64,000 nucleotides of DNA, taken from positions 1 to 64,000 of the forward strand of contig JAJFFY010000007.1 in NCBI GenBank assembly GCA_021776415.1, read 5' to 3'. The notes under the pieces are model-generated. The model did not search any database. It was not told where the DNA came from and worked only from the letters and a program-made list of their open reading frames with translations. The stretch is from Hyphococcus sp. GTDB taxonomy: Bacteria; Pseudomonadota; Alphaproteobacteria; Caulobacterales; Parvularculaceae. Positions 35,918 through 55,306 of this stretch are shown here, piece by piece (within the stretch, counting starts at the first letter, position 1; the number at the start of each line of letters is the position of its first letter). A program made the translations under genes and the position numbers.

Positions 35918-35968
35918 ATATATTCGTCGTACTAATAGAAATCATTTATAGCGACCGCAGGTGGAGTT

Positions 35969-37048: not shown

Positions 37049-37064
37049 TTGGGTGTTAACATAC

Positions 37065-37080
37065 GTGATATAAATATCAC
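37065..37080. promoter_or_regulatory. Predicted TetR-family operator, site 2
   Basis: GTGATATAAATATCAC matches site 1 in 15 of 16 positions and is a palindrome except for the central pair. It lies 140 bases upstream of the TonB receptor ATG. The match suggests that the upstream TetR protein controls the receptor and probably the genes behind it. Confidence 0.55.
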
Positions 37081-37220
37081 TTAACTATGAAAAACATGGG
37101 TTTTTGCATCGCCTCACTGTTATAAAATTCGTTTCAGTGGAACACTCTGGTGGGATAATCCGTTCAGTTGCCGCACTTTGTGTGAGAGCAACGAAATCGA
37201 CGCTGGGAGGGTCAAGAAGA

Positions 37221-39659
37221 ATGAATAACCTGAAGAAAATCGTATGCGGCACTGCATCCGTAATTGCTGTCGCGGTTGCATCGAGCGCTGCGCTTGCTGC
37301 AGACGTCATCGTCGTCACTGCCACCAAGCGCGCAACAACGCTGCAGGAAACACCGGTCGCGGTTAGTGTTATTGGTGCTGACGATTTAAAAGATTCGCAG
37401 ATACGCGATGTTCGAGACCTGCAGCTTCTGGCGCCGTCTCTGACCGTGATCCAACAACAAACATCGTCCAACACTGTTTTTGCAATTCGCGGCATTGGCA
37501 CATCGGGCAACAATGCCGGGCTTGAGCCGTCAGTCGGCGTTTTTGTCGATGGCGTCTACCGCTCACGCCAGGGCGCAGCCATCAACGATTTTCCGACAGT
37601 GGAACGTATTGAGGTTTTGCGCGGGCCGCAAAGCACGCTCTATGGTCGCAACACACCCGCTGGCGTTATCAGCATCATCACCCAAAAGCCGGAATTTGAA
37701 GCTGGGGCCGATGCAGAAGTCACTTATGGAAATTTCAACAACGTTATCATGAAAGGCAGCGTGACCGGGCCGATAAGTGAGAATGTTGCAATCCGTATTT
37801 CTGGCAACGTCAACAAGCGTGACGGCTTTATCGATAATGTGGCTACTGGCGAAGATGTAAACGGCCGGGATCGCTGGGCTCTTCGCGGGCAGTTGTTAAT
37901 TGAACCATCGGACAGCGTCTCTATTCGGATTATAGGTGATTACAGTTCACTTGACGAAGAATGTTGTGCGGCGCCGTTCTTCGTGAATAATCCGACGAAT
38001 GCTTTCGTTCTTGGTACCTTGCTCGGCGCCAATATTTTGCCGGCGACGCCGTTTGAACGTGAAGTGGCGTTTGATGGCGGGCTTCGCACTGACCAGGAAA
38101 TATTTGGGTTTTCTGGTGAGGTTAATATCGATCTGGGCTATGCTGAGCTGACATCAATCACCGCCTATCGCGATTTTGATGAAACTTCTGATATCGACGC
38201 TGATTTTGTTGATATTGAGCTTTCCAGAGATAATCTAAACGCAGACGCTTACAACACCTTCACCCAAGAGTTACGTCTTGCATCCACCGGCGACAATCGT
38301 CTCGACTGGATGTTCGGCGCCTTCTATTTTAATCAGAACTTGATGCATGACCGTAGTTCGCCTTTTGGCGCCTTCCTTCGGCCGTTTGCTGATATCGCCT
38401 CTGGCGGCAACATCACCAATCTTGAAAATATTCTGATAGGCTTTGGTGCGGCGACGCCGGGTTCATTCCTGGCTGCCGGTGGTGGTCTGCAACAGGAGCT
38501 TTTCACGCAAGACGATGAAAGCATCGCTGTCTTTGGCACGCTTGATTACCACCTTACTGATAACCTCACTGCGACCGGCGGCATTCGCTGGGAATCAGAA
38601 ACCAAGGACGTCATCAGTGATGTTCAGGTCACAGGGCCGTTCCAGGCGCTGGATTTAACCAATGTCCCGCAGCTGCCGTTCTTACCGCCAGCATTCGGCG
38701 GCCCGCTTCCCGTTGGCGCCTTCGCCGCGCTTTCGCCATTTCAGTTCTTCCCTAATCCTTTCGTGAACTTCTCAGATTCACGTACGGATGACAAAACTTC
38801 CTACCTCGGTCGGCTCGCCTATGACGTGAGCGATAATCTCAGCGTCTATGGCAGCTACTCAACGGGGTTCAAATCCGGCGGGTTTAATTTGTCTTCCGGT
38901 TCATCGGTATCTACGGCAGATTTTGCGCCGGAAACAACAAGATCGTTTGAAATCGGCGCCAAAAGCAGCCTCTACGATGGGAGGATGACCGTAAACATCG
39001 CATTGTTCGACCAGAAAGTGACGGACTTCCAGGCGAATATTTTCAATGGCACATCTTTTGACCTGACCAATGCTGGTGAGAGAAAAATTAAAGGGTTTGA
39101 ATTTGAAACCGTAATCACTCCTCATGAGAATTTTATTCTTACTGGCGCGGTAACCTATCTTGACGCTGACTTTACGGAATTCCTACGTGGGTCTTGCGTC
39201 AGCTCCGGCTTTATTGACGATACCAATATCCCGCCCGAATTGCTGACATGTTCGCCAACTGTATCGGGCGCTGCAAATCCGGCATTTACAAACACCCGTG
39301 ACTTCAGCGGTCAGCCAGACTTGGGCGTCCCCAAAGTCAGCGCAGTGACCACGGCGACCTGGATTGTCCCCATGGGTACTTTGGAAGGTTATGTCCGCGG
39401 TGAATTTCAATACGGCGGCAAATTTAATGCTGGCGGCGACCAGAATCCTTTGAAACTTGTGTCGTCTCAAAGCATGCTTAACGCCAGCGTCGGCATCAGC
39501 AACCCAGACCAAGGCTGGCAACTCGTTGGCTGGATCAAAAACATCACTGATGAAGAATTTGCCCAAGGCATCTTCGACTCGGTGGCGCAACCGGGCAGCC
39601 TTAACGGCTATCCGAATGATCCACGCACCTACGGAGCGACTGTACGGCTCAGCTTCTAG
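37221..39659 (+). CDS. TonB-dependent outer-membrane receptor
   Basis: The 812-residue protein starts at ATG 37221. It has a signal peptide (about 1-27, ending AALAA), a TonB-box-like DVIVVTATKR, a plug domain (LQETPVAVSVIGADDL, IRGIGTSGNN, VFVDGVYRSR, VERIEVLRGPQSTLYGRN) and a 22-strand barrel with LSVYGSYSTGFKSGG and a terminal Phe (TVRLSF). The type resembles the large receptor families of oligotrophic Alphaproteobacteria that import carbohydrates or aromatic compounds. The substrate is not predictable. A strong terminator follows, so the permease gene probably has a second promoter or gets read-through. Confidence 0.93.
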   Translation: MNNLKKIVCGTASVIAVAVASSAALAADVIVVTATKRATTLQETPVAVSVIGADDLKDSQIRDVRDLQLLAPSLTVIQQQTSSNTVFAIRGIGTSGNNAGLEPSVGVFVDGVYRSRQGAAINDFPTVERIEVLRGPQSTLYGRNTPAGVISIITQKPEFEAGADAEVTYGNFNNVIMKGSVTGPISENVAIRISGNVNKRDGFIDNVATGEDVNGRDRWALRGQLLIEPSDSVSIRIIGDYSSLDEECCAAPFFVNNPTNAFVLGTLLGANILPATPFEREVAFDGGLRTDQEIFGFSGEVNIDLGYAELTSITAYRDFDETSDIDADFVDIELSRDNLNADAYNTFTQELRLASTGDNRLDWMFGAFYFNQNLMHDRSSPFGAFLRPFADIASGGNITNLENILIGFGAATPGSFLAAGGGLQQELFTQDDESIAVFGTLDYHLTDNLTATGGIRWESETKDVISDVQVTGPFQALDLTNVPQLPFLPPAFGGPLPVGAFAALSPFQFFPNPFVNFSDSRTDDKTSYLGRLAYDVSDNLSVYGSYSTGFKSGGFNLSSGSSVSTADFAPETTRSFEIGAKSSLYDGRMTVNIALFDQKVTDFQANIFNGTSFDLTNAGERKIKGFEFETVITPHENFILTGAVTYLDADFTEFLRGSCVSSGFIDDTNIPPELLTCSPTVSGAANPAFTNTRDFSGQPDLGVPKVSAVTTATWIVPMGTLEGYVRGEFQYGGKFNAGGDQNPLKLVSSQSMLNASVGISNPDQGWQLVGWIKNITDEEFAQGIFDSVAQPGSLNGYPNDPRTYGATVRLSF

Positions 39660-39726
39660 GAGTTCTTCTACCCCTGCAGAATTATCTGTAGGGGAAGGTC
39701 GTTTGTTGCTTATTTTTGACAATATT

Positions 39727-39756
39727 AAGGCCGCGCCAATTGGCGCGGCCTTTTTT
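39727..39756 (+). terminator. Strong rho-independent terminator after the receptor gene
   Basis: A perfect 26-base palindrome (AAGGCCGCGCCAA paired with TTGGCGCGGCCTT, 39727-39752) runs into six T residues (39751-39756). It is the best terminator in the window. A weaker stem CCCCTGCAG/CTGTAGGGG lies just before it, and GTATCG/CGATAC just after. The rest of the 39757-39883 spacer has no copy of the TetR palindrome. Confidence 0.85.
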
Positions 39757-39883
39757 CTGTAGGTATCGTTATGCCGATACACAGCCTATTTCCGAGCTTG
39801 TTGCGACACATGTAATAACCGTGTGACGCGATTAGCAATCATCGTTAGGGTTGTCATGACTGGCAGCCAGCACAGGTACATAC

Positions 39884-41383
39884 ATGTCGGAAAATACAAG
39901 CGGCGGCGTTGTCTATGCGCGGCCTGATGAGGGGTATTTCGAACGGCGCGGCCTGAAACGCTATGCTGGCGTGTGGTCGCTTTGGGCGCTGGGTGTTGGC
40001 GCTGTCATTTCGGGGCATTTCTCGGGCTGGAATCTTGGCCTTGGTGTCGGTGGCTGGGGCGGCATGTTCGTCGCCACAATCATCATTATGACGATGTATT
40101 TGGGGCTGACATTTTCCATCGCGGAAATGAGCCCGGCCTTACCGCATACGGGCGGCGCATATTCTTTCGCCAGAACCGCCATGGGCCCCTGGGGCGGGTT
40201 TGTGACGGGGCTTGCGGAGAATGTTGAGTTCATTCTCACGCCGGCGGTGATCGTGTTTTTTATCTCGTCTTATCTCTCCGGAATATTTGAAACACCGGAC
40301 AGTGTTTTGCCAGTCTATTGGTTCTTGGGCTATGCGGTATTCGTGACGCTGAATATCGTCGGTGTTGAGTTATCCTTCCGTGTGACCTTGCTAGTCACGC
40401 TGGCGGCGCTGACCTGCTTGATCGTGTTCTGGTTTTCAGCCTTGCCGAATATAGATTTCAACGCATGGGCGCTTGATATCGGCGCCGACGGAGAAAAGCT
40501 GGAGGGTGGCGGTGGTCCGTTCCTGCCATTTGGGTTTTCCGGCGCGCTCGCGGCTTTGCCGTTTGCGGTCTGGTTATTTCTGGCGATTGAACAATTGCCG
40601 TTGGCGGCGGAGGAATCGGTTGACCCAAAACGCGATATGCCGCGAGGGATAATAGCGGGCATGGTCACGCTCATCATTTCTGCGTTCGCAATCTTGTTTT
40701 TGAACGCCAGCGTCATCGGGGTTGGCTCACATGCGCTTGGTCAGTCGGGCGAGCCGTTGCTGGATGGCTTCCGCGCGATCTATGGTGGGAGCACCGCAAA
40801 GTTGCTCGCCCTAGTGGCGGTTATCGGGTTGGTCGCGTCTTTCCACACAATTATTTTCGCCAAAGGTCGGCAGATTTATTCTCTTTCACGCGCCGGGTAT
40901 TTCCCGCAATTTTTGTCGCTTACCCATGGCAAGCGTAAAACGCCCTATGTGGCGATGATTTTTGGGTCAGCCGTTGGCCTCACCGTGATGATGACGGTAT
41001 GGCTACTGGCTGGCACGGCGCGCGGGGAAAGCATCATCGGCGGAACATTGTTAAACATGGCTGTTTTCGGTGCGATGTTTTCTTATGTTTTGCAAGCAGC
41101 CTCATTCCTACTGCTTCGTAAAAACATACCAGATATGGATAGACCTTTTCGTAGCCCACTCGGCCCATTGGGTGCGTGGACGACGATACTGATCGCTCTG
41201 CTCACGTTATATTATCAGCTCAGCGACCCCACTTATCGCGTCGGCGTATTTGCCGTTGCGGGGTGGTTTGCGGTCGGCATCACTTATTTTGCCGCCCATG
41301 GCAGACGCCATCTTGTTTTGTCGCCAGAAGAACAGTTCGCAATGGATCAGCGGTCAACATCAAAACAATCAACTCACGGATAA
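39884..41383 (+). CDS. APC-family permease, ethanolamine permease type
   Basis: The 499-residue protein has 12 membrane helices. The pattern LWALGVGAVISGHFSGWNLGLG near residue 30-51, HTGGAYSFARTAMGPWGGFVTGLAEN and the AAEESVDPKRDMPRG loop are close to the ethanolamine permease (Eat) branch of the APC superfamily, which exchanges or co-transports ethanolamine and related amines. The exact substrate is inferred. The next gene, a glutamine-synthetase-like ligase, starts 5 bases after the stop. Confidence 0.78.
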   Translation: MSENTSGGVVYARPDEGYFERRGLKRYAGVWSLWALGVGAVISGHFSGWNLGLGVGGWGGMFVATIIIMTMYLGLTFSIAEMSPALPHTGGAYSFARTAMGPWGGFVTGLAENVEFILTPAVIVFFISSYLSGIFETPDSVLPVYWFLGYAVFVTLNIVGVELSFRVTLLVTLAALTCLIVFWFSALPNIDFNAWALDIGADGEKLEGGGGPFLPFGFSGALAALPFAVWLFLAIEQLPLAAEESVDPKRDMPRGIIAGMVTLIISAFAILFLNASVIGVGSHALGQSGEPLLDGFRAIYGGSTAKLLALVAVIGLVASFHTIIFAKGRQIYSLSRAGYFPQFLSLTHGKRKTPYVAMIFGSAVGLTVMMTVWLLAGTARGESIIGGTLLNMAVFGAMFSYVLQAASFLLLRKNIPDMDRPFRSPLGPLGAWTTILIALLTLYYQLSDPTYRVGVFAVAGWFAVGITYFAAHGRRHLVLSPEEQFAMDQRSTSKQSTHG

Positions 41384-41388
41384 ATCTG

Positions 41389-42756
41389 ATGAAGGGTCTT
41401 CTTTCCCTAGATGCGTTACGAGACGAGGTTCGTAAAGAACGCATTGATACGGTTCTCGTTTGCTTCCCAGATATGCAAGGGCGGCTTATGGGTAAGCGTT
41501 TTCACGCGGAATTCTTTATCGATGGCGGGTATGAGGAAACCCATGCATGCGATTATCTTCTCGCCAATGATATGGAAATGGAGCTTGTGCCCGGCTATGA
41601 GGCGGCGGGTTGGGATAAGGGTTATGGCGATTTTATTTTAAAGCCTGACCTTTCCACGCTTCGCATCACGCCCTGGCTTGAAGGAACGGCGCTGGTTCTG
41701 TGCGATATTCTGGACCACTCCGGCAAGCCAGCGCCGATCAGTCCGCGCGCAATGCTTAAAAGCCAGCTTGCGCGGCTGGAGGCGATGGGCATGACGGCGA
41801 TGACTGCTTCTGAGCTTGAATTTTATTTGTTTCATGAAACTTATGGGTCAGCTGCGGATAAATACTTTCAAGACCTCAAACCAAGCGGCGCCTTCATTGA
41901 AGATTATCATATTCTACAAACATCCAAAGAAGAGTCCGTGCTGCGCGCCATGCGCAATGGCATGCAAGGCGCCGGCATTCCGGTTGAAAATTCCAAAGGT
42001 GAATGGGGTCCTGGACAGCAGGAGTTGAATGTTCGGTATGCGGATGCACTGACCATGGCCGATCGCCACGTCATCATGAAGAACGGTATGAAAGAAATAG
42101 CCCACAGCCATAATCGGGCCATCACCTTCATGGCAAAGTGGAAGCATGAGCTTGCCGGCAATAGTTGTCACATTCACATGTCGTTGTGGGATAAGGGCGT
42201 CAAGAAGCCGTTGTTCTATGATGAAACCGCTGAATACGGAATGTCGGACTTAATGCGGCAGTTCATGGCGGGCCTTTTAACCCATGGTGAAGCGATCACG
42301 TATTTTCTGGCGCCTTTCATCAACTCCTATAAACGGTTTCAGGCGGGCACATTTGCGCCGACGCGTCTGGTGTGGTCACGCGACAATCGTACGGCTGGCT
42401 TTCGTTTATGCGGAGAAGCAACAAAGGCGATACGCTGTGAATGCCGAGTGGGCGGGGGTGATCTAAATCCTTACTTGGCGAAGGCCGCGCTCCTCGCCGC
42501 AGGCATTGACGGTGTTGAAAAGAAAATGACTTTAGCTCCGGGCTTTATCGGTGACGCCTATGGCGACGAAAGCCTGCGCGCCGTGCCCATAACTTTGCGC
42601 GCCGCGACCGAGGCGCTTGACCGATCGGACATGCTGCGCGCCGCTTTTGGAGATGGGGTCATTAATCACTATGTGCACGCAGCAAAATGGGAGCAGTCAG
42701 AGTATGACCGGTGCGTCACTGATTGGGAGTTGAAGCGTGGATTTGAACGCTCATAA
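41389..42756 (+). CDS. Glutamine-synthetase-family ligase (gamma-glutamylamide synthetase type)
   Basis: The 455-residue protein has the GS fold with metal and ATP sites: MTASELEFYLF, WGPGQQELNVRYADAL, GNSCHIHMSLW, NSYKRFQAGTFAPTRLVW, CECRVGGGDLNPYLAKAA. Its beginning (ERIDTVLVCFPDMQGRLMGKRF) is that of PuuA/IpuC/GlnA4-like enzymes that join glutamate to primary amines, and not of nitrogen-assimilating GlnA. The adenylylation-loop Tyr of GlnA is not evident. Placed directly after an ethanolamine-type permease, it probably makes a gamma-glutamylamide from the imported amine. ATG 41389 is chosen because upstream residues lie in the permease. Confidence 0.82.
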   Translation: MKGLLSLDALRDEVRKERIDTVLVCFPDMQGRLMGKRFHAEFFIDGGYEETHACDYLLANDMEMELVPGYEAAGWDKGYGDFILKPDLSTLRITPWLEGTALVLCDILDHSGKPAPISPRAMLKSQLARLEAMGMTAMTASELEFYLFHETYGSAADKYFQDLKPSGAFIEDYHILQTSKEESVLRAMRNGMQGAGIPVENSKGEWGPGQQELNVRYADALTMADRHVIMKNGMKEIAHSHNRAITFMAKWKHELAGNSCHIHMSLWDKGVKKPLFYDETAEYGMSDLMRQFMAGLLTHGEAITYFLAPFINSYKRFQAGTFAPTRLVWSRDNRTAGFRLCGEATKAIRCECRVGGGDLNPYLAKAALLAAGIDGVEKKMTLAPGFIGDAYGDESLRAVPITLRAATEALDRSDMLRAAFGDGVINHYVHAAKWEQSEYDRCVTDWELKRGFERS

Positions 42757-42768
42757 CGGGCGCGCGGT

Positions 42769-44160
42769 ATGACAGAGACGATACAGTGCATATCACCGAT
42801 TGACGGCTCGACCTTTTTTGAACGGCCCGTTGCGAGTGGCAAGGAGATAGCGGCTGCGCTGGATGCGGCACGTAATGCCCAAGCCGACTGGTCTGCATTT
42901 TCAATTGCCGAACGTGCGCAATATTGCACTTCTATTGTCGATAATGTGCTTGCCATGGAAGCGGAGATCACGCCTGAACTTGCATGGCAAATGGGGCGTC
43001 CTATCCGGTTCGGCGCTGGAGAATTGCGCGGCTTTGAGGAGCGCGCACGTCACATGATTGCGATTGCCGAGGAGGCGCTGGCACCGGTTGAGCCAACACC
43101 CATGGACGGCGTTTGCCGTTTCATTCAACGTATTCCCATGGGCGTTGTTTTTATTATCGCCCCGTGGAATTACCCCTATCTCACAGCGGTAAATTCGCTG
43201 ATCCCGGCATTGATGGCGGGTAATGCCGTCATTTTAAAACACGCTGCGCAAACCCTTGGTGTAGGTGAACGGTTGCAAATAGCTTGTGATAAGGCAGACT
43301 TGCCAAAGGGCGTATTTAAAAACCTTTTCCTCACTCACGATCAAGCTGCGGTGATGATCGCCAGCAACAAAATCGATCAGGTGAATTTTACCGGCTCGGT
43401 CACGGGCGGTAGGGAGATTTCTACGGCTGCGGCGAAAACATTTATGGGCGTTGGGCTGGAGCTGGGCGGCAAGGACCCCGCTTATGTGCGAGAGGATGCC
43501 GACCTTGACCATGCGGTCGAAAGCCTTGTCGATGGCGCCTATTTCAATTCAGGCCAAAGCTGTTGTGGGATTGAACGCATCTATGTGAGTGATAAAATCT
43601 ATCAGGATTTCGTCGATGGTTTTGTAGAGCTCACGCGGGCTTATGTTTTGGGCAACCCGCTTGAGGGGGCGACCACCCTTGGGCCGATGTTGAAGCCAGC
43701 TGCGGCTGATTTTGTGCGTGGGCAAATCAACATAGCGGTGGATTTCGGCGCGCGCGCACTGATTAATGCAAAGGATTTCAAACTGGACGCTCCGGGCTCA
43801 TCCTATATGGCGCCGCAGGCGTTGATCGATGTCGACCATTCCATGGCGGTGATGATGGAAGAATCGTTCGGGCCGGTCGTCGGGATCATGAAAGTGCGCG
43901 ACGACAACGAGGCTGTTCGGTTGATGAACGATAGCGACTATGGGTTGAGTGCTTCCATCTGGACGGCTGACCTCGGCTGTGCGCAAAATCTTGGCGGCCA
44001 GATTGAAACCGGGACAGTTTTTATGAATCGTTGCGACTATCTTGATCCGACGCTTGCATGGACCGGCGTTAAAAATACTGGGCGCGGCGCGACACTGTCG
44101 CATATCGGCTATCATACACTCACGCGGCCAAAATCTTTTCACCTGAAACACCAAATCTAA
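42769..44160 (+). CDS. NAD(P)-dependent aldehyde dehydrogenase
   Basis: The 463-residue enzyme has the ALDH catalytic set: APWNYPY near residue 131, FTGSVTGGR, Glu231 in LELGGKDP, Cys265 in NSGQSCCGIER, and EESFGPVVGI. It oxidises an aldehyde to the acid. By context the substrate is an aldehyde formed by the downstream alcohol dehydrogenase or by amine removal. It starts 12 bases after the ligase gene and ends 12 before the alcohol dehydrogenase, in one operon. Confidence 0.92.
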   Translation: MTETIQCISPIDGSTFFERPVASGKEIAAALDAARNAQADWSAFSIAERAQYCTSIVDNVLAMEAEITPELAWQMGRPIRFGAGELRGFEERARHMIAIAEEALAPVEPTPMDGVCRFIQRIPMGVVFIIAPWNYPYLTAVNSLIPALMAGNAVILKHAAQTLGVGERLQIACDKADLPKGVFKNLFLTHDQAAVMIASNKIDQVNFTGSVTGGREISTAAAKTFMGVGLELGGKDPAYVREDADLDHAVESLVDGAYFNSGQSCCGIERIYVSDKIYQDFVDGFVELTRAYVLGNPLEGATTLGPMLKPAAADFVRGQINIAVDFGARALINAKDFKLDAPGSSYMAPQALIDVDHSMAVMMEESFGPVVGIMKVRDDNEAVRLMNDSDYGLSASIWTADLGCAQNLGGQIETGTVFMNRCDYLDPTLAWTGVKNTGRGATLSHIGYHTLTRPKSFHLKHQI

Positions 44161-44172
44161 AGGGCGCTGACC

Positions 44173-45330
44173 ATGCAGATGTGTGCTGACTGGAGTTATC
44201 CAACATCTATTCGCTTCGGCGCAGGTCGCATCAATGAGCTTGCGGATGTTTGCGCGAGTGCCGGCATGCGCCGGCCCTTGCTGGTGACGGACCCCGTGCT
44301 TGCGACGTTTCCAATGATTGAGGATGCCTTGTCGCAATGTCGCGCGGCGGGATTGGGCGTTGCACTCTTCTCGAACCTTAAGCCAAATCCGACCGGCGCG
44401 AATGTCGAGGCCGGCGCCAAAATATTCCGCGAAGGCGGACATGACGGCGTCATCGCCTTTGGCGGCGGCAGTGCAATTGATTGCGGCAAGGCGATTGCGT
44501 TTCTGCATGGTCAATCGCGCCCGCTCTGGGACTATGAAGATGTCGATGATTGGTGGAGCCGCGCTGACAGCGATGCGATTGCGCCGGTGATTGCCGTGCC
44601 GACGACGGCGGGAACGGGGTCAGAGGTCGGTCGTGCATCCGTTATCGTTAAGGAAACAACTCTTGAGAAGAAAATCATCTTTCACCCCCGGATGATGCCG
44701 GCAGGCGTGATTTGTGATCCGCAACTGACCGTTGGAATGCCGCCGGTTCTGACGGCTGGTGTGGGGCTTGATGCGTTTGCCCATTGCCTGGAGGCTTATT
44801 GCGCCCCAACATTTCATCCGCAGTCGGAAGGAATCGCACTTGAAGGCATGCGATTGGTCAAAGATGCGCTTGGCGATGCTGTGAAAGACGGCACAGACAT
44901 AAAGGCTCGTGCGAAAATGCTTGCAGCGGCGTCCATGGGCGCTGTCGCTTTTCAAAAAGGGCTTGGCGCCATTCATTCCCTGTCGCATCCTATTGGCGCC
45001 ATTTATGACACCCATCATGGCATGACAAACGCCGTGATCATGCCTTATGTGCTGGCTTTTAACCGCGATGCGATCGAGGAAAAGATTGAGCGGTTATCGG
45101 CCTTCTTAGGGATAGAGAGAAATTTTGATGCGCTGATGAAATGGCTGATCGACATCAGATCAGAAATACACGTTCCACATACATTAAAAGAATTTGGAGT
45201 TGATGATGCGCAAGTGCAGAAGGTTTCCGAAATGGCTGCCATTGATCCAACTGCTGCGACGAACCCAATAAAGCTCGACGCAACGGCTGCCCGTGAAATC
45301 TTTGAAGCCGCCTATACGGGAAGGCTGTAG
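44173..45330 (+). CDS. Iron-containing alcohol dehydrogenase
   Basis: The 385-residue type III alcohol dehydrogenase has the NAD-binding GGGSAIDCGKA and PTTAGTGSEV. Metal ligands are carried by VGLDAFAHCLEAY (Asp, His) and IHSLSHPIGAIYDTHHGMTN (two His). It interconverts an alcohol and an aldehyde. With the GS-like ligase and ALDH it would oxidise the free hydroxyl of a gamma-glutamyl amino-alcohol. It is the last gene of the operon and converges on the transporter operon with a 22-base gap. Confidence 0.92.
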   Translation: MQMCADWSYPTSIRFGAGRINELADVCASAGMRRPLLVTDPVLATFPMIEDALSQCRAAGLGVALFSNLKPNPTGANVEAGAKIFREGGHDGVIAFGGGSAIDCGKAIAFLHGQSRPLWDYEDVDDWWSRADSDAIAPVIAVPTTAGTGSEVGRASVIVKETTLEKKIIFHPRMMPAGVICDPQLTVGMPPVLTAGVGLDAFAHCLEAYCAPTFHPQSEGIALEGMRLVKDALGDAVKDGTDIKARAKMLAAASMGAVAFQKGLGAIHSLSHPIGAIYDTHHGMTNAVIMPYVLAFNRDAIEEKIERLSAFLGIERNFDALMKWLIDIRSEIHVPHTLKEFGVDDAQVQKVSEMAAIDPTAATNPIKLDATAAREIFEAAYTGRL

Positions 45331-45352
45331 TGGTGGAGATCTAATTGCTGCT

Positions 45353-47068
45353 TTAGCGCCAGCTCTCAACCAGCGTGTCGTAGTCGATGGTTTCCGGCGT
45401 CGGGCGTTCATTGGCGAGCTTGGCTTTGGGCGAACCTTCTCTCGCCAGCCAATCGGCGGGATTTGTTTTCTTGTTAAGTTTGGGCCCGCATTCGCCATGC
45501 ACGCCGGCGCGCTCCAGCCGCGACAGAATTTTATCTTGCGCGTCGGCGAGGGCGTCCATCGCCTGTTGCGCGGTCTTTGCGCCGGAGGAAGCGTCGCCAA
45601 TATTTTGCCACCAAAGCTGGGCAAGTTTCGGATAGTCCGGAACATTCATGCCTGTAGGCGACCATTGAAGGCGGGCGGGCGAACGGTAAAACTCAACCAG
45701 GCCGCCAAGCTCGGTCATCCGGTCCGTGAAAGATTGATCCTGGATGTCCGACTCTCGAATAAATGTCAGGCCCACATGGCTTTTCTTTAAGGATACAGTT
45801 TTGGAAACCACAAACTGTGCATAAAGCCAGGCGGCTTTGCGGCGATCGACCGGTGTGGATTTCATCAATGTCCACGAGCCAGCGTCCTGATAGCCAAGTT
45901 TTTGGCCGTCCTGCCAGTAGGCGCCGTGCGGAGAAGGGGCCATGCGCCATTTAGGCGTGCCGTCTTTGGCGACAACCGGCAGACCCGGTTTGACCATGTC
46001 GGCAGTGAATGCAGTGTACCAGAACATTTGCTGAGCGATGGCGCCCTGGGCAGGCACGGGCCCGGCCTCGGAAAAAACCATCCCGGCGGCTTGCGGTGGC
46101 GCATAGGATTTCAACCAGTCGATATATTTTTGCACGGCGTAAACGGCGGCGGGACCGTTGGTCGCGCCGCCACGCGAGACCGATGAGCCCACCGGGCGAC
46201 AGCCGTCAACGCGAATACCCCACTCGTCCACAGGCAAGCCATTGGGAATGCCTCTGTCGCCCGCGCCGGCCATGGAGAGCCACGCATCAGTGAAGCGCCA
46301 ACCGAGCGATGGGTCCTTCTTGCCATAATCCATGTGCCCATAGACGCGCACGCCGTCGATTTCACGCACATCGTGAGTGAAGAAATTGGCAATATCTTCG
46401 TAGGCGGACCAGTTTACTGGCACGCCAAGGTCGTATCCATATTTTGCCTTGAAGCGGGCTTTGATATCTGGGTCGGTGAACCAGTCATAGCGAAACCAAT
46501 AGAGGTTAGCGAATTGTTGGTCTGGAAGCTGGTATAATTTTCCATCCGGCGCCGTAGTGAAAGACCGACCGATAAAGTCATCAATATCAAGCGTCGGTAA
46601 GGTAACATCCTTGCCTTCCCCCACCATCCAGTCGGATAGCGCTACAACCTGTTTGTAGCGATAATGCGTACCGATCAAATCGGAATCATTGACGTAGGCG
46701 TCGTAGATATTGCGCCCGGTCTGCATTTGGGTTTGCAGTTTTTCAATAACGTCGCCTTCGCCGATGAGGTCATGATTGACCTTGATACCGGTGATCTCAA
46801 AAAACGCTTTGGCGAGTTTCTTGGATTCATATTCATGTGTGGCGATGGTCTCCGACACGACATTGATTTCCACCCCCTTGAAGGGTTCGGCGGCCTTGAT
46901 GAACCACGCCATTTCGGTTTGCTGTTCATCCTGGCTTAAGGTCGAGGGTTGGAACTCTTCGTCAATCCATTTGCGGGCGGCGTCCATATCGGCCTGTGCT
47001 GAACCGACGGCGATGGCAGAAATAGCAACAACCCTGGCGGCTTGTTTTATTGTGGCCAGCAGTCTCAT
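45353..47068 (-). CDS. glpV: Glycerol-type ABC transporter solute-binding protein
   Basis: The 571-residue periplasmic protein starts at ATG 47068, with AGGAG 7 bases upstream. Its signal peptide is RLLATIKQAARVVAISAIAVGSAQA. The length and segments such as DMDAARKWIDEEFQPSTLS, HEYESKKLAKAFFEITGI and WFRYDWFTDPDIKARFKAKYGYDLGVPVNWS fit the large GlpV type of R. leguminosarum GlpSTPQUV. Gene order confirms the set. It is last in the operon, after a 76-base gap, a place where separate high expression of binding proteins is common. Confidence 0.85.
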   Translation of the reverse strand: MRLLATIKQAARVVAISAIAVGSAQADMDAARKWIDEEFQPSTLSQDEQQTEMAWFIKAAEPFKGVEINVVSETIATHEYESKKLAKAFFEITGIKVNHDLIGEGDVIEKLQTQMQTGRNIYDAYVNDSDLIGTHYRYKQVVALSDWMVGEGKDVTLPTLDIDDFIGRSFTTAPDGKLYQLPDQQFANLYWFRYDWFTDPDIKARFKAKYGYDLGVPVNWSAYEDIANFFTHDVREIDGVRVYGHMDYGKKDPSLGWRFTDAWLSMAGAGDRGIPNGLPVDEWGIRVDGCRPVGSSVSRGGATNGPAAVYAVQKYIDWLKSYAPPQAAGMVFSEAGPVPAQGAIAQQMFWYTAFTADMVKPGLPVVAKDGTPKWRMAPSPHGAYWQDGQKLGYQDAGSWTLMKSTPVDRRKAAWLYAQFVVSKTVSLKKSHVGLTFIRESDIQDQSFTDRMTELGGLVEFYRSPARLQWSPTGMNVPDYPKLAQLWWQNIGDASSGAKTAQQAMDALADAQDKILSRLERAGVHGECGPKLNKKTNPADWLAREGSPKAKLANERPTPETIDYDTLVESWR

Positions 47069-47144
47069 GAAGATACTCCTCATAACTAAAACGTCGGCGA
47101 ACCGGGTTGCGACGATGAATATGCAGGTATGAAAACCAACAAGG

Positions 47145-47432
47145 TTATCCCCACCGAAAAACGATAGCGGCGTAAACCAGCGATATCGCCGCCGCCCATT
47201 TGAGATCATACCCGGTTGCGCCAAGCCAGGCCAGGTGGATAAAGGCGCTGCCCAACAGGGAAATAAACAACCGGTCGCCGCGCGTGGTGGCAAGCTTGAA
47301 AAATAGCCCCGGACGCGGTTCGGCGCCATTTGGTCGCAAGAAATATAGGCCAGCCATCAGGGTGAGAACGGTTCCGATAGCACCAAAAAACAGTGCGGTG
47401 GGCGCCGTCCAGGTCATCCAAGATAGGTCCAT
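47145..47432 (-). CDS. glpU: DUF2160 small membrane protein of glycerol transporter
   Basis: The 95-residue protein has three hydrophobic segments (ALFFGAIGTVLTLMAGLYFL, LFISLLGSAFIHLAWLGA, AAISLVYAAIVF) and the N-terminal MDLSWMTWTAPTA of DUF2160, encoded between glpQ and glpV in glycerol ABC operons. A GGGAGG site precedes the ATG. It lies 16 bases after glpQ. Its role in transport is unknown. Confidence 0.82.
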   Translation of the reverse strand: MDLSWMTWTAPTALFFGAIGTVLTLMAGLYFLRPNGAEPRPGLFFKLATTRGDRLFISLLGSAFIHLAWLGATGYDLKWAAAISLVYAAIVFRWG

Positions 47433-47448
47433 TGCCGCCTCCCGATTC

Positions 47449-48267
47449 CTACACACGCCCGAGCGCAAAGCCGCGCGCGATGTGATGGCGCACAAACCAG
47501 ATGACCAGTGCGCCGGGAAGGATGGTCAAAATGCCCGCTGCCGCGAGCACGCCCCAGTCGAGGCCGGAGGCGGAAACTGTCCGCGTCATCACCACAGCAA
47601 TGGGTTTGGCGGCGACAGATGTTAATGTGCGTGCGATGAGCAATTCGACCCACGAAAACATGAAACAGAAAAATGCGGCAACGCCGATGCCGCTGGCTAT
47701 TAGCGGTGTAAAAATTTTCACGAAGAACTTAGGGAAGGAATAGCCGTCAATATAAGCCGTTTCATCAATCTCACGCGGTATGCCGGACATGAACCCCTCC
47801 AAAATCCAAATTGCTAGCGGGATATTGAAAAGCGTATGCGCTAAAGCGACGGTTATGTGAGTGTCGAAAAGATTGATAGAAGAATAAAGCTGGAAGAAAG
47901 GCAGGGCAAACACGGCTGGCGGCGCCATTCTATTTGTCAGCAGCCAGAAGAATATGTGTTTGTCGCCCAGGAAACGGTAACGCGAAAAAGCATAAGCCGC
48001 TGGTAGCGCCGCCAGCACCGAAATTACCGTGTTCATCGACACATAGATCATCGAATTGATGTATCCAGAATACCACGACGCATCGGTGAAAATTACCAAG
48101 TAATTTGCAAAGGTTAGGTTTTCCGGCCAGAGGGAAAAAGTTGAAAGAATTTCCTGATTGGTTTTGAGGCTCATTGTTAGCAGCCAATAAATCGGCGTCA
48201 TCAGGAAAATGATATAGAGCACGGGCGCAACGTATTTTGTTCGAAATTTCCTTGCAGGGGCAGTCAT
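47449..48267 (-). CDS. glpQ: ABC transporter permease, glycerol-type
   Basis: The 272-residue inner-membrane protein has six helices and the MalG-type coupling motif in EGFMSGIPREIDETAYIDG. It forms the channel with GlpP and binds the two ATPases. Its start overlaps the glpP stop by four bases. Here glpQ denotes the Rhizobium permease name, not the E. coli phosphodiesterase. Confidence 0.88.
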   Translation of the reverse strand: MTAPARKFRTKYVAPVLYIIFLMTPIYWLLTMSLKTNQEILSTFSLWPENLTFANYLVIFTDASWYSGYINSMIYVSMNTVISVLAALPAAYAFSRYRFLGDKHIFFWLLTNRMAPPAVFALPFFQLYSSINLFDTHITVALAHTLFNIPLAIWILEGFMSGIPREIDETAYIDGYSFPKFFVKIFTPLIASGIGVAAFFCFMFSWVELLIARTLTSVAAKPIAVVMTRTVSASGLDWGVLAAAGILTILPGALVIWFVRHHIARGFALGRV

Positions 48268-49145
48268 TGCGAGCGCCTGTATTGTTCAAAATCATCACGC
48301 GTCATAATGGTGTAGAATGCCCAGGACACTAAAATAACGATAAGAAAATAAATCACTGACATCGCCGCCGCCGGGCCTAAGTCGAACTGGCCAATCGCCA
48401 TTTTGACTAGATCGACGGAGAGAAAAGTAGTGGCGTTGCCGGGGCCGCCACCGGTGACAACGAAAGGCTCCGTATAGATCATGAAACTGTCCATGAATCG
48501 CAACAAAACGGCAATCAATAAAACACGACTCATTTTTGGGAGTTCAATATAGCGAAAAATTGCCCATCTTGATGCGCCATCGATACGCGCGGCCTGATAA
48601 TAAGCGGGCGGAATAGCAACCAGTCCTGCATAACAAAGCAGGACCACAAGGCTTGTCCAGTGCCAGACATCCATGATGATGAGGGTCACCCATGCCGCGC
48701 CGGCGTTTTGGGTGTAGTTGAAATCAATGCCAAGCCCGCTCAGCGTATGGCCGAGAAGGCCGATGTCGACCCGCGCAAAAATCTGCCAGATAGTACCAAC
48801 AACATTCCACGGGATTAATAGCGGTAACGCCATCAACACGAGGCAAACAGATACGCCCAGTCCTTTTTTCGGCATGGAGAGCGCGATGGCGAGTCCCAGA
48901 GGAATTTCGATTGCCAAAATTGTGGCGGAAAATGCAATTTGCCTGAGGAAGGCGGCATGAAAACGGTCAGAGCGCAGAATTTCCCGGTACCATTCGGCGC
49001 CGACCCAGAAAAATTGATTGTTCCCAAACGTATCCTGTACGGAATAATTAACTACCGTCATTAAGGGAATGACAGCCGTGAATGCCACTAACAATAATGC
49101 CGGCGCGACGAGCCATAGTGCTTTATGATCATGCGCTTTTTGCAC
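48264..49145 (-). CDS. glpP: ABC transporter permease, glycerol-type
   Basis: The 293-residue MalF-type permease has six membrane helices and a coupling motif YYQAARIDGASRWAIFRYIELP. The start is GTG with GGAG upstream; it follows glpT by 5 bases and overlaps glpQ. It pairs with GlpQ as the second channel half. Confidence 0.88.
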   Translation of the reverse strand: MQKAHDHKALWLVAPALLLVAFTAVIPLMTVVNYSVQDTFGNNQFFWVGAEWYREILRSDRFHAAFLRQIAFSATILAIEIPLGLAIALSMPKKGLGVSVCLVLMALPLLIPWNVVGTIWQIFARVDIGLLGHTLSGLGIDFNYTQNAGAAWVTLIIMDVWHWTSLVVLLCYAGLVAIPPAYYQAARIDGASRWAIFRYIELPKMSRVLLIAVLLRFMDSFMIYTEPFVVTGGGPGNATTFLSVDLVKMAIGQFDLGPAAAMSVIYFLIVILVSWAFYTIMTRDDFEQYRRSQ

Positions 49146-49150
49146 GGGCG

Positions 49151-50233
49151 CTAGCTCCGCTTTCCGACGAGATGGCCGTTGGCGTATATATGCGAATTTT
49201 CTGCATCAAACATTATGCCGACGTTTCCGGAAGGTTGCGGCTCGCCATCGGGAAGAATTGCGGCGAGCGTCAGGTCGCAAAACTTCAAACGTGCGATTTG
49301 ATAACGCCCGGCATCCTCAATCGCTTCAACAGTTACCGGCAGGGCGCACTTGTCAGTGCTGATTTTGACAAATTCCGGACGCACGCCAAACTCTATGCGT
49401 TCGGCGCCGGTGGGAAGGGTGACAGTGCAGCCGATATTGATGGCGTGGCCGGCAAGAATGAGGTGGTGATTGTCAATTGTGCAGGGCATCACATTCATCC
49501 CCGGCGAGCCAATAAACCGGCCGACAAATGTATGAGCTGGCCGTTCAAACAATTCTTGCGGCGAGGCGGTCTGCACAATCTCGCCTTCAGACATTACAAT
49601 CACCTGATCGGCAAATGTCAGCGCTTCGGTCTGGTCGTGGGTTACATAAATCATCGTATGATTGAATTCAGCATGAAGTCGTTTCAGTTGAGATCTGAGC
49701 GACCATTTTAGTTGCGGATCGATAACCGTAAGCGGCTCATCAAATAAAATTGCGGCGACATCTTCACGTATAAGACCGCGGCCTAGTGATATTTTTTGTT
49801 TTTCATCCGCGGACAAATCGCGCGCTTTGCGCGATAAGTATTTTGATAGCTCCAGCATGTCGGCGAGGCGGGTCACGCGGGTGTTAATTTCATTTTTAGG
49901 GATTTTGCGGTTCTGAAGAGGAAAGGCAAGGTTTTGATAGACCGTCATGGTGTCGTAGATGACCGGGAACTGAAAAACTTGCGCGATGTTACGCACTTCG
50001 GGCGATTTTGAAGTTATGTCAGCACCGTTGAAAAGAACCGTCCCTTGCGATGGATGCAGTAACCCTGAAATGATATTGAGCAAGGTTGTCTTGCCGCACC
50101 CCGAGGGCCCAAGAAGCGCATAAGCTCCACCATCTTTCCAGCTGACGTTAAGCTTTTTAAGAGCAAATTCATCTTCTGATGATGGCTCCGCAGCGTAAGA
50201 ATGGGCAATGTTTTCTAAGTCAATACGCGCCAT
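49151..50233 (-). CDS. glpT: ABC transporter ATPase with atypical signature motif
   Basis: The 360-residue ATPase has Walker A GPSGCGKT (42-49), a Q-loop at VFQFP, Walker B ILFDEPLTVID and an H-loop in VTHDQTEAL. The signature that is normally LSGGQ reads LSADEKQKISLG (140-151), with no Gly-Gly. The same kind of altered signature is known in the GlpT branch of glycerol ATPases. A C-terminal TOBE-like regulatory domain follows. The partner GlpS keeps a normal signature, so the dimer is asymmetric. Confidence 0.87.
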   Translation of the reverse strand: MARIDLENIAHSYAAEPSSEDEFALKKLNVSWKDGGAYALLGPSGCGKTTLLNIISGLLHPSQGTVLFNGADITSKSPEVRNIAQVFQFPVIYDTMTVYQNLAFPLQNRKIPKNEINTRVTRLADMLELSKYLSRKARDLSADEKQKISLGRGLIREDVAAILFDEPLTVIDPQLKWSLRSQLKRLHAEFNHTMIYVTHDQTEALTFADQVIVMSEGEIVQTASPQELFERPAHTFVGRFIGSPGMNVMPCTIDNHHLILAGHAINIGCTVTLPTGAERIEFGVRPEFVKISTDKCALPVTVEAIEDAGRYQIARLKFCDLTLAAILPDGEPQPSGNVGIMFDAENSHIYANGHLVGKRS

Positions 50234-50238
50234 TCAGA

Positions 50239-51306
50239 TCAGCCTACCGGCGCGGCGACAAGAGCGCCGTTTCCATCAAAAACAAACAACTTATTCGGGT
50301 CGGGATTGAGTGAGATTTTATCCCCCGCATTTAACGCATGGACACCATGTAAAAGCGACACCCAGCGTGTCCCCAAAAATTCTGCATGCACCATTGTTTC
50401 AGACCCAGTGACTTCAGTCGTCGCTACAATCGCCTCTATGCCGTCATTTGTCGGTGCTCCAATGTTAAGGTGATGTGCACGTAGGCCAATTTCATAAGGC
50501 CCGTCGGCAAGGGCTTCCATATGAGTCCCGGCATGCAAATGTCTGTCACCATCAAATTCCAGAACAGCACCTTTTTTCTTGATGCGTATTGTATTCAACG
50601 GAGGGTCGCTCATGATCTGCGCGGTGACGAGCGTGTTCGGGTGATCATATAGTCTTCGCGCCATTCCTGTACTGGCAATGCGACCCTCATGAAGGCATGT
50701 AACACTGTCGCCAATCAACATTGCCTCGGTTGGTTCCGAGGTTGCATAGACGAACACCGCGCCGGTACGCTTAAAAATCCGGGGCAACTCTGTGCGCAGC
50801 TCCTCGCGAAGTTTATAATCTAGATTAGCCAGCGGCTCATCCAGCAAAACTAGTGAAGCTTCTTTTACCAGCGCGCGCGCCAGTGCGATGCGCTGCTGTT
50901 GGCCGCCGGAAAGCTCGCTCGGGCGTCGGCGCAAAAATTCCTTGATGCCGAGAATTTCAGCGGCGCCCTCAACTTTTTGTTTGATTTCTCGATTGGTGGC
51001 GCGGCGCACCCGCAAGGGCGAGGCGATGTTCTCATAAACGCTCAAGGACGGGTAGTTGACAAATTGCTGGTAGACCATTGCGACGTTTCGTTTGCGCACC
51101 GGAACGCCGGTTACGACTTGACCATCCATGATGATCTCGCCGCTTGTGGGTTTGTCGAGGCCGGCCATTAACCGCATCAGGGTGGTCTTTCCGGAAAGCG
51201 TCGGGCCCAATAAAATATTCAATTTGCCGGGAGCCAGTGAAAGATTGACGCCCTCCACATGCGCTTGTCCACGTTCATATTTTGTGATGGATTTTAGTTC
51301 CAGCAT
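50239..51306 (-). CDS. glpS: ABC transporter ATPase, glycerol-type
   Basis: The 355-residue MalK-like ATPase has Walker A GPTLSGKT (34-41), ELSGGQQQRIALARAL, Walker B LVLLDEPLANLD, and YATSEPTEAM where ThrHisAsp is usual in the H-loop, so the switch His appears replaced by Ser. A TOBE-like domain follows. With GlpT it would give one normal and one degenerate site set. It is the first gene of the operon; the 243-base upstream spacer is shared with the divergent hydrolase gene and holds a GCGTA/TACGC palindrome near 51330. Confidence 0.87.
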   Translation of the reverse strand: MLELKSITKYERGQAHVEGVNLSLAPGKLNILLGPTLSGKTTLMRLMAGLDKPTSGEIIMDGQVVTGVPVRKRNVAMVYQQFVNYPSLSVYENIASPLRVRRATNREIKQKVEGAAEILGIKEFLRRRPSELSGGQQQRIALARALVKEASLVLLDEPLANLDYKLREELRTELPRIFKRTGAVFVYATSEPTEAMLIGDSVTCLHEGRIASTGMARRLYDHPNTLVTAQIMSDPPLNTIRIKKKGAVLEFDGDRHLHAGTHMEALADGPYEIGLRAHHLNIGAPTNDGIEAIVATTEVTGSETMVHAEFLGTRWVSLLHGVHALNAGDKISLNPDPNKLFVFDGNGALVAAPVG

Positions 51307-51549: not shown

Positions 51550-52569
51550 ATGTTCAAGAAAACCATTATAGCGCTGGTGGTAGTCGCCGCCGCCCTTATC
51601 ATTCCCTATATGTGGATCGGGATGGGCGACAAGCCATTTGACGATGAGGTGCGTGCCCGGGCGCCGGGTCAATTCGCCGAACTGACCAGTGGCAAACTCC
51701 ACTATGTATGGATTAAACCTACGCCAGAAGTTGCCAATGGCGAGACTATCGTCATGTTGCACGGGCTTTATATTCCTCACTTTATGTTCGCTCAAAATGC
51801 TGAGGCGCTTGCCGCTGCTGGTTATCGCGTGTTGTTGCCGGATCTGTTTGGTCATGGCTTTTCCGATCGCCCAACCGAGAGCTATGATCAGGCTTTCTTT
51901 GAGCGTGAAGTGCGCGAATTACTGAATGCGACAGGCGTAGATGAGCCGTTTTATCTCGCGGGCCAATCTACCGGCGGCATGGCCGCAACGCTGTATGCAA
52001 GCCAACATCCTGACCAGATAAAGGGTCTGATGCTGATTGTTCCGGCAGGGCTTAAAATGCATGGTCGTGACGACGATATAATCTCGAACATATTACGCAC
52101 GCGCATAGCTGGCGAGTGGCTCTGGCGTGTTCTTGGGCGGCGCCAGTTGTTGGCGCCGTGGAAGCCGCCTTGCGGTGAATGCGGCGATGGCCCCCTTCTC
52201 GGGGATCCGCTTGTCCAGGCAGAATATCGTGGTTACTTTCCGGCGATGTTGAATATTCTTCGCCATTTCCCTTTGCGTGACCAAGACCCAATTTATTATG
52301 CCGCAGGAGAGGCAGGCTTTCCGATGATGGCGATATTTGGCGGCAAAGATGAAACCGTTCACATTAACAGTACGGATACATTTGCAGCGGCGGCGCCGAA
52401 TGCGGAGCTGGTGATTATTGAAAATGGCGATCACGCGATGCATTTTCGCAAATCGGAAGCAGTCAATCCGGTGTTGCTGTCATTCCTCTCCGGCCTCAAT
52501 GCAGCAGAGCCGGCTGACGAGATGGGCGTGAGCGAGGAAATAGCGAACGAACAATATAACCGCCACTAA
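51550..52569 (+). CDS. Membrane-anchored alpha/beta hydrolase
   Basis: The 339-residue protein has an N-terminal membrane anchor or uncleaved signal (IIALVVVAAALIIPYMWIG) and an alpha/beta hydrolase domain. The oxyanion region is MLHGLYIPHF, the nucleophile Ser140 lies in AGQSTGGMAA, Asp is in FGGKDETV and His in GDHAMHF. The family includes lipases, esterases and haloalkane-type hydrolases, so the substrate is not predictable. GGGGAGG precedes the ATG. It is divergent from glpS and overlaps the convergent phosphodiesterase by 4 bases. Confidence 0.82.
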   Translation: MFKKTIIALVVVAAALIIPYMWIGMGDKPFDDEVRARAPGQFAELTSGKLHYVWIKPTPEVANGETIVMLHGLYIPHFMFAQNAEALAAAGYRVLLPDLFGHGFSDRPTESYDQAFFEREVRELLNATGVDEPFYLAGQSTGGMAATLYASQHPDQIKGLMLIVPAGLKMHGRDDDIISNILRTRIAGEWLWRVLGRRQLLAPWKPPCGECGDGPLLGDPLVQAEYRGYFPAMLNILRHFPLRDQDPIYYAAGEAGFPMMAIFGGKDETVHINSTDTFAAAAPNAELVIIENGDHAMHFRKSEAVNPVLLSFLSGLNAAEPADEMGVSEEIANEQYNRH

Positions 52570-53471
52570 AGTTGGATGGCGGCGCCTGCAAGTCGCGCCG
52601 CATAAGCCGTATCGGGAAAATCCGTGAAAACACCATCGACGCCGAGTTTAAAGAAGAATTCAAACTCGGCATGAGCGGTCTGAAAAGCATCGGGTAGCTG
52701 GTCTGCTCTGAAAGTCCATGGGTGGACTTTCAGGCCAGCCGCGTGGGCGTCTTCGATAAGCCCGTTCGACTGGCCATCAGTATTAACGAGCAGTTTTTTG
52801 TAGGGCCCAATGCCATCCGCAAAGGCGGCTATGTCTGGCATGGTGAGGTCGCTCTTTGATTCGAGAAGGTAGATGAGTGGCAATTGGGTTTTGGTTCTGA
52901 GGTCTTTCAATATCGGTATTTCGAATGACTGAATAAACACTGGCGCGTCTTTTTCATTCCATCCTGCGCGTTCTAATGCACCGAGAACTACAGTTGCATA
53001 ATCATAACCAAGGCTTGCGAAATAATCGGGCGATTTCGTTTCTGGATAAATACCGATTGTTCTGCCCAGTTTTTTTCCTTCAGATTGCGCAAGCGCAATT
53101 ACCTCGTCAAACGTTGGGATTTCAAACATGCTATCCGCGGCATGGCTGCGAAATTCCATCGCCTGACGCGCCCGTAGAGTTTTTATTTCAGCGAGAGTAA
53201 AATCTTCTGTGAACCAATCAGCGCCGTCATGGCCAGGCTTTTCAGTTTTCCTCGTTGCAAATTCTGGGTGGTCAGCAATGTCAGTGGTGGTTGATAGATA
53301 ATGATCATGGCGCGCAACCAAGCGCCCGTCCTTGGTGAACACCAGATCAGGTTCGATATAATCTGCTCCAAGCGTGGCTCCTAAACGGTACCCGGTGAGG
53401 GTATGTTCCGGGAGATAGCCGGGCGCGCCGCGGTGGGCGATGATCAGTGGTGATGGGGTTGTGTGCGCCAT
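52566..53471 (-). CDS. Glycerophosphodiester phosphodiesterase
   Basis: The 301-residue enzyme hydrolyses glycerophosphodiesters to glycerol 3-phosphate and an alcohol such as ethanolamine or choline. Catalytic motifs are AHRGAPGYLPEHT (His13, Arg14, His23 region), IEPDL (Glu40, Asp42), RHDHYL and PETKSP. No signal peptide is seen, so it should act in the cytoplasm (UgpQ-like) or be exported differently. Its nearness to the glycerol transporter and ethanolamine-type genes is suggestive. Confidence 0.9.
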   Translation of the reverse strand: MAHTTPSPLIIAHRGAPGYLPEHTLTGYRLGATLGADYIEPDLVFTKDGRLVARHDHYLSTTTDIADHPEFATRKTEKPGHDGADWFTEDFTLAEIKTLRARQAMEFRSHAADSMFEIPTFDEVIALAQSEGKKLGRTIGIYPETKSPDYFASLGYDYATVVLGALERAGWNEKDAPVFIQSFEIPILKDLRTKTQLPLIYLLESKSDLTMPDIAAFADGIGPYKKLLVNTDGQSNGLIEDAHAAGLKVHPWTFRADQLPDAFQTAHAEFEFFFKLGVDGVFTDFPDTAYAARLAGAAIQL

Positions 53472-55253: not shown

Positions 55254-55306
55254 CTGCGTCAAGCAATGCGGGCCTGGTCCGGCTAGTGTAATATAAGAAG
55301 CGAGAA

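Follow-up and report, generated by a model that had tools for sequence, protein, structure and literature searches.

A candidate B12-independent ethanolamine cassette of the eto kind in Hyphococcus sp., with its final hydrolase unlinked or replaced

Four closely packed genes in Hyphococcus sp. (Caulobacterales; Parvularculaceae) raise the question of which small amine they serve and by what route. They lie in a stretch of 64,000 nucleotides (positions 1 to 64,000 of contig JAJFFY010000007.1, assembly GCA_021776415.1; hereafter the window) from a genome that is 85% complete. An initial annotation proposed that ethanolamine is gamma-glutamylated here and then oxidised to gamma-glutamylglycine. 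We consider it likely that together they constitute a cassette of the eto kind for the B12-independent catabolism of ethanolamine or a close amino-alcohol. They occupy 39884-45330 of the + strand and follow one another in series with gaps of 5, 12 and 12 bases, which bears out the tight packing first described:

39884..41383, + strand: permease of the amino acid-polyamine-organocation (APC) superfamily, Eat (ethanolamine-permease) type, proposed ethanolamine importer (PF00324/PF13520; TIGR00908)
41389..42756, + strand: glutamine-synthetase-family ligase, proposed ethanolamine gamma-glutamylase (PF00120, Gln-synt_C, 1.7e-97)
42769..44160, + strand: aldehyde dehydrogenase (ALDH), proposed to convert gamma-glutamyl-aminoacetaldehyde to gamma-glutamylglycine (PF00171, Aldedh, 1e-112)
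44173..45330, + strand: iron-type (group III) alcohol dehydrogenase (Fe-ADH, or ADH), proposed gamma-glutamylethanolamide dehydrogenase (PF00465, Fe-ADH, 1.2e-48; PF25137, ADH_Fe_C, 2.5e-37)

With the substrate and the order of reactions taken from characterised relatives, the permease would import ethanolamine, the ligase would combine it with glutamate and ATP to give gamma-glutamylethanolamide, the ADH would oxidise the alcohol of this compound to an aldehyde, the ALDH would oxidise the aldehyde to gamma-glutamylglycine, and a hydrolase encoded elsewhere would release glycine and glutamate. The glycine could be used by the glycine decarboxylase P protein that is present in this genome and in four relatives (5/5). 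The passage from ligase through ADH and ALDH to gamma-glutamylglycine is very probably correct, as an ethanolamine pathway built from the same families has been published and its ligase falls in the same clade; the route proposed by the initial annotation is already in print and not new. We further note that the absence of ammonia lyase and shell genes, first remarked for the neighbourhood, holds across the 85% complete genome: neither EutB nor a bacterial microcompartment shell protein is found in it, and EutC is found neither in it nor in four relatives.

Over one alignment the ligase is 61.9% identical to PDB 11zs, 57.5% to PDB 5dm3 (which we take to be the Chromohalobacter salexigens ligase), 28.4% to E. 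coli GlnA and 27.0% to PuuA. It retains E129, E131, E212, E220, G265, H269, R321, R339, R344, R355, E357 and R359 of GlnA, the positions compared for metal, ATP and glutamate binding, and D64 in addition. In GlnA numbering, D50 is replaced by P, Y179 by F, N264 by A and E327 by F. PMC6529630 explains what D50, Y179 and E327 do, and it places F331 of the ethanolamine ligase GlnA4 at the position of E327. In the window ligase the catalytic residues are kept and the ammonium-site residues of glutamine synthetase (GS) are lost.

This pattern is accompanied by placement in the clade of a characterised eto enzyme. Loci encoding proteins related to the ligase (cited by L numbers) were collected from genome contigs, and of the 73 found, L071 holds a fragment only and was excluded, leaving 72. 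A maximum-likelihood tree was built of 50 ligases, comprising 35 hand-chosen from the 72 loci, that of the window, 10 plasmid-borne ones, two PDB chains, PuuA and GlnA, after the ligase of L007 had been dropped as truncated; a long-branch warning was given for the outgroups. The window ligase groups with its closest named relatives, those of Marinicaulis metagenome-assembled genomes (Parvularculaceae), next to Henriciella and Robiginitomaculum. It falls inside a 36-row group (support 100/98) together with 5dm3, 11zs and ligases of Ruegeria, Paracoccus, Aminobacter, Rhizobium and Bacteroidota/Rhodothermota, and this group contains the ligases of complete, hydrolase-bearing eto-type operons. SAR11 ligases stand one step outside it, joining at 100/98.

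The two oxidoreductases are similarly conserved. Cys265 and Glu231 of the ALDH, which we assume to be catalytic, are each invariant in 50/50 aligned cluster ALDHs, and D200, H204, H268, H272 and H282 of the ADH, presumably its metal and catalytic residues, are invariant in 58/58 aligned cluster ADHs.

The same genes accompany the ligase in other genomes. Neighbours were counted within 6 kb of the ligase by tblastn at 1e-20 over half the query, a setting that misses divergent neighbours, with Fe-ADH and ALDH counted at an identity of at least 45% to those of the window. On this count Fe-ADH accompanies the ligase at 53 of the 72 loci and ALDH at 45; an APC permease does so at 14, a PF05013 hydrolase at 10, RpiR at 7, a class-I glutamine amidotransferase (GATase) of the Robiginitomaculum type at 4 and EtoX at 2, and 17 loci have none of the counted kinds. 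When 22 near-identical SAR11 loci are left out, Fe-ADH is found in 31/50 and ALDH in 23/50. Because Fe-ADH and ALDH recur at 53 and 45 of the related loci, the grouping is not due to chance. The order permease-GS-ALDH-ADH is repeated in the Bacteroidota/Rhodothermota loci L008, L010 and L040, and hydrolase-bearing operons run RpiR, PF05013 hydrolase, an importer of either the tripartite ATP-independent periplasmic (TRAP) or the APC kind, GS, ALDH, Fe-ADH. Plasmids of Paracoccus denitrificans (RpiR - PF05013 - TRAP x3 - GS - ALDH - Fe-ADH) and R. leguminosarum (RpiR - PF05013 - permease - GS - ALDH - Fe-ADH) follow this plan.

In distant plasmid-borne members (Meiothermus, Thermomicrobium, Arthrobacter) the Fe-ADH is replaced by a short-chain dehydrogenase; the Arthrobacter locus has a GATase as hydrolase, and the Thermomicrobium permease is annotated eat. 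Alternative enzymes therefore exist for the reactions adjoining that of the ligase. In Aminobacter and Paracoccus pantotrophus (L085, L103) the eto-type operon lies on a plasmid and is directly followed by bhc genes, which encode the beta-hydroxyaspartate cycle for glyoxylate assimilation. Two loci show broken frames, the ALDH frame being split at 11381-12773 of L001 and the permease frame holding one stop codon at 6281-7726 of L040; these breaks are either assembly errors or decay.

Several observations weigh against the ethanolamine reading, and the first group concerns the last step. The initial annotation found no final hydrolase in the cluster, and the window as a whole indeed has no match to PF05013 (the N-formylglutamate-amidohydrolase family). 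Two PF05013 proteins are encoded elsewhere in the genome (L079, L080), neither tracking the cassette. Across 62 genomes of the family PF05013 shows no association with the cassette: 61 have a match, 58 of them above 180 bits (including all 5 with the cassette), and a weaker type related to the known hydrolase (95-147 bits, including the L080 protein) is present in 2/5 cassette genomes and 25/57 others. The L080 protein is 36% identical to the L017 hydrolase over 222 residues, and the L079 protein gives no BLAST match to three cluster hydrolases at 1e-3. The L080 gene adjoins a carboxylate-amine-ligase-like gene, so named by reading its sequence.

A GATase-type hydrolase, which the initial annotation had suggested looking for beside homologous clusters, is present at four of the 72 loci, all Robiginitomaculum; the PF05013 type is the commoner one (10/72). 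At the Robiginitomaculum loci (L005, L006, L007, L064) GS-ADH faces a convergent class-I GATase, with no ALDH match nearby, which suggests that the GATase is a swapped hydrolase. As a substitute in the window's lineage it was rejected, since at 1e-15 the five cassette genomes gave no match to it and all 62 genomes together a single weak one (58 bits). PF07722 has five matches in the genome, at 21 to 38.7 bits. None of ten neighbouring open reading frames of L004, L008 and L010 is clearly a gamma-glutamyl hydrolase; at L004 there are genes of the dienelactone-hydrolase and metallo-beta-lactamase-fold kinds, and at L010 the permease adjoins an M20 peptidase gene. Gamma-glutamyltransferases of PF01019 are present in all five cassette genomes, the five searched for them, and could cleave gamma-glutamylglycine, though they are general enzymes. 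Relative to the published pathway the hydrolase is unlinked or replaced, and its absence points to another enzyme for the last step.

The second group concerns specificity. The permease scores 373.9 bits with the NCBIfam model TIGR00908, 'ethanolamine permease', just below the cut-off of 381.75; this is the model of 7 among 10 cluster permeases scanned, only that of L098 exceeding the cut-off. The nearest NCBIfam models of the two dehydrogenases name other substrates (4-hydroxybutyrate dehydrogenase for the ADH, succinic semialdehyde dehydrogenase for the ALDH), all with scores below cut-off. The likeness of the ligase to GlnA4 is partial, as GlnA4 has Asp (D81 or D69, by model; PMC6529630) where the window ligase has P at D50, a column that is itself unsure since identity to GlnA is low. 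Neither ADH nor ALDH is near the ligase at 19/72 loci, several of them on contigs that end close by. The 100/98 group also includes ligases without an ADH or ALDH neighbour (for example Paraburkholderia L031, L011, L013, L014 and L027), so the clade may serve other amines as well. Ligases of Paraburkholderia/Trinickia (L029-L031, L033, L039, L062), 61-63% identical to that of the window, have near them a PuuD-like match (33-37%), genes related to homoserine succinyltransferase and LysE, and no ADH or ALDH match, some of the contigs stopping shortly after the ligase; their substrate is probably another amine.

These points bear on four other explanations. The one that survives best, which we still regard as unlikely, is an ipu-like cassette for another small amino-alcohol (L-alaninol, 1-amino-2-propanol) that would yield gamma-glutamylalanine or a related product. 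The logic of ligase, ADH and ALDH suits any primary amino-alcohol, and the isopropylamine route IpuC/IpuH/IpuI reportedly runs via gamma-glutamyl-L-alaninol, which we counted in its favour. The TRAP binding protein of L032, adjoining the ligase, matches PDB 4uab at 2e-193; 4uab, which we take to be bound to ethanolamine, speaks for the ethanolamine reading, and 4xf5, which has the same sequence and which we take to be bound to 2-amino-1-propanol, for this one. The window permease, however, resembles ethanolamine permeases, and the characterised operons of the eto kind described in PMC10132767 are ethanolamine ones.

Very unlikely is degradation of polyamines (putrescine, cadaverine) of the Puu kind, with the ADH present by coincidence. 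PuuC is an ALDH, and the ligase has a higher BLAST score with PuuA (147 bits) than with GlnA (119 bits; both of E. coli), the identities over the whole alignment being 27.0% and 28.4%. Against this, the ligase reaches 225.4 bits with NF045547 (gamma-glutamylputrescine synthetase), where the cut-off is 650, PuuB and PuuD have no match in the window at 1e-20, the putrescine route requires an amine oxidase and no alcohol dehydrogenase, and Fe-ADH is the commonest of the counted neighbours.

It is equally improbable that the ADH and ALDH act on a free alcohol (choline to betaine, as GbsBA do, or 4-hydroxybutyrate to succinate) beside an unrelated ligase. The ADH does score 352.5 bits with the 4-hydroxybutyrate dehydrogenase model and 238.5 with that of the choline dehydrogenase GbsB, but both scores lie below cut-off, the ADHs of the hydrolase-bearing eto-type operons L032 and L104 score alike and share their best NCBIfam model with that of the window, and ligase and ADH stay paired in loci of Pseudomonadota, Bacteroidota and Rhodothermota. 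Finally, a second glutamine synthetase, for which the Gln-synt_C domain speaks, is the least likely of the four, as the ligase reaches 235.3 bits with TIGR00653 against a cut-off of 429.15 and has lost the ammonium-site residues.

If the cassette is one for ethanolamine, as we favour, where does it begin, and how is it distributed? The initial annotation set its start at 37221, which is the ATG of a receptor gene upstream of it:

35969-36553: TetR-family gene, 3.3 kb upstream of the permease
37221-39659, + strand: TonB-dependent receptor
39727..39752, + strand: terminator-like hairpin of 11 pairs with a T-rich tail, between receptor and permease (terminator scan)

We moved the start to 39884 and rejected the receptor as a firm part of the cassette, because 224 bases that include the hairpin part it from the permease and because it has no match next to the cassette in the relative L003; it is probably a separate unit. 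The window has 11 terminator-like sites, against a mean of 8.6 in shuffles, and the one at 39727-39752 has the longest stem, is intergenic and is the probable upstream border of the cassette unit. The TetR-family gene is a candidate regulator, with the TonB gene between it and the permease. A search of 35500-55400 with Rfam gave zero matches. The cassette ligase is present in 5 of the 62 family genomes, all of them within the window's genus, to which 28 of the 62 belong, and because of this narrow, patchy occurrence the cassette was probably acquired.

Downstream, the cassette is met by genes that raise the question of where the ethanolamine would come from:

45353..51306, - strand: ATP-binding cassette (ABC) transporter (solute-binding protein, two permeases, two UgpC-like ATPases), convergent to the ADH; not core
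51550-52569, + strand: alpha/beta hydrolase
52566..53471, - strand: glycerophosphodiester phosphodiesterase (GDPD; PF03009, 3.4e-49); not core
53776-54687, - strand: FolD
55307-63033, + strand: block of formate dehydrogenase, FdhD and formate-tetrahydrofolate (THF) ligase

Both ATPases are nearest to UgpC (292.1 and 272.7 bits), the cut-off of 432 not being reached, and a search of solved structures with the binding protein gave zero matches. The binding protein is found in 6/62 family genomes, namely the five ligase-bearing ones and a member of a different genus, G012; the five are close relatives, so that transporter plus cassette counts as one event and not as five. In G012 (L105) the same transporter stands beside a GDPD 73% identical to that of the window, and the cassette is absent. 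Transporter and GDPD therefore go together independently of the cassette. Outside the lineage, the 73 loci and two plasmid loci gave only one match to the GDPD, at 26% (L034). By reading, the G012 GDPD starts with a Tat-lipoprotein-like stretch, and the window frame starts downstream of an in-frame counterpart of it (52566-53620), so the cell location of the window GDPD is uncertain. The transporter is a possible partner of the cassette in this Parvularculaceae lineage and the GDPD a possible source of ethanolamine and glycerol-3-phosphate; together they suggest salvage of glycerophosphoethanolamine. In open-licence literature, a search for papers joining this diester and ethanolamine with an ABC transporter and a phosphodiesterase gave a single one, on E. 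coli.

FolD, formate dehydrogenase subunits, FdhD and formate-THF ligase cluster near the cassette (53776-63033) and could take up the one-carbon unit of glycine. This link is weakened by the relative L093, where the genes beside the GDPD match FolD, FdhD and formate-THF ligase and none matches the formate dehydrogenase subunits. A tentative extension, which we think more doubtful than probable, would make the whole locus a glycerophosphoethanolamine salvage island: the GDPD would split the diester, the ABC transporter would import the diester or glycerol-3-phosphate, the cassette would turn ethanolamine into glutamate and glycine, FolD and formate-THF ligase would take the one-carbon unit, and the last hydrolysis would fall to a protein unrelated to the known hydrolase.

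Among phospholipid head groups ethanolamine is a main one, and its use in the sea has been gauged by way of one importer gene. In the account of PMC10132767, B12-free ethanolamine use in the ocean was estimated from the TRAP gene etoX, and 19% of the etoX matches belonged to SAR11. Nearly one sequence is shared by the 22 SAR11 loci of our set (L041-L057, L059, L063, L067, L072, L073), which have the order ALDH-GS-ADH flanked on one side by a COQ9-domain gene and on the other by one for inositol monophosphatase (L042 serving to name both families); EtoX and the PF05013 hydrolase have no match in them up to 10 kb on each side. A search of open-licence literature found no paper joining SAR11, ethanolamine, glutamine synthetase and alcohol dehydrogenase. 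The etoX marker could miss these 22 loci as well as TRAP-less clusters of the APC type such as that of the window, and using ligase and ADH together as another marker would usefully complement it.

How does the window compare with the systems described before? The ethanolamine pathway of Chromohalobacter salexigens and Agrobacterium tumefaciens C58 is said to go back to Vetting and colleagues in 2015. The route is reported for Chromohalobacter, Agrobacterium and Phaeobacter (eto) and, with another dehydrogenase, for Streptomyces (PMC10132767; PMC9397018; PMC6529630). The operon of Phaeobacter MED193 is given as RpiR, GGAH, EtoVWX, ETAGA, GAADDH and GETADH (Westermann et al., 2023; PMC10132767); according to the same account, hydrolase, TRAP binding protein, ligase, ALDH and ADH are raised on phosphorylethanolamine, EtoX binds ethanolamine with a Kd of 7.9 uM, and the genes are closely related to an ethanolamine pathway demonstrated in C. 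salexigens and A. tumefaciens C58. The papers differ on this point, the C. salexigens pathway being called an in silico prediction in PMC6529630 (Krysenko et al., 2019). The MED193 operon and the window have ligase, ALDH and ADH in the same order and with the same predicted chemistry, but in the window an APC permease stands where MED193 has the TRAP importer EtoVWX, and both RpiR and a hydrolase gene are lacking (DctM, EtoX and RpiR have no match in the window).

With C. salexigens and A. tumefaciens C58 the window shares PF00120, PF00465 and PF00171, its ligase being 57.5% identical to 5dm3, and it differs in its importer and in lacking the PF05013 hydrolase, the fourth family that Table 2 of a 2022 review gives for C. 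salexigens (PMC9397018). In the Streptomyces coelicolor pathway (SCO1611-SCO1615), GlnA4 is reported as gamma-glutamylethanolamide synthetase and the same later steps are proposed (PMC6529630); the first step, the logic and F at E327 are as in the window, whereas the Streptomyces clusters, as described there, have a short-chain dehydrogenase for Fe-ADH and, in addition, a regulator and an amidohydrolase/amidotransferase gene. Like the window, Rhizobium leguminosarum (L104), Chelatococcus (L017) and Devosia (L022) have an APC permease beside GS, ALDH and Fe-ADH, the L104 permease fitting TIGR00907 better than TIGR00908; unlike the window, all three retain the PF05013 hydrolase, with RpiR retained as well in L017 and L104. 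The window is very probably a further member of the published pathway, with a variant importer and regulator and with its hydrolase unlinked or replaced.

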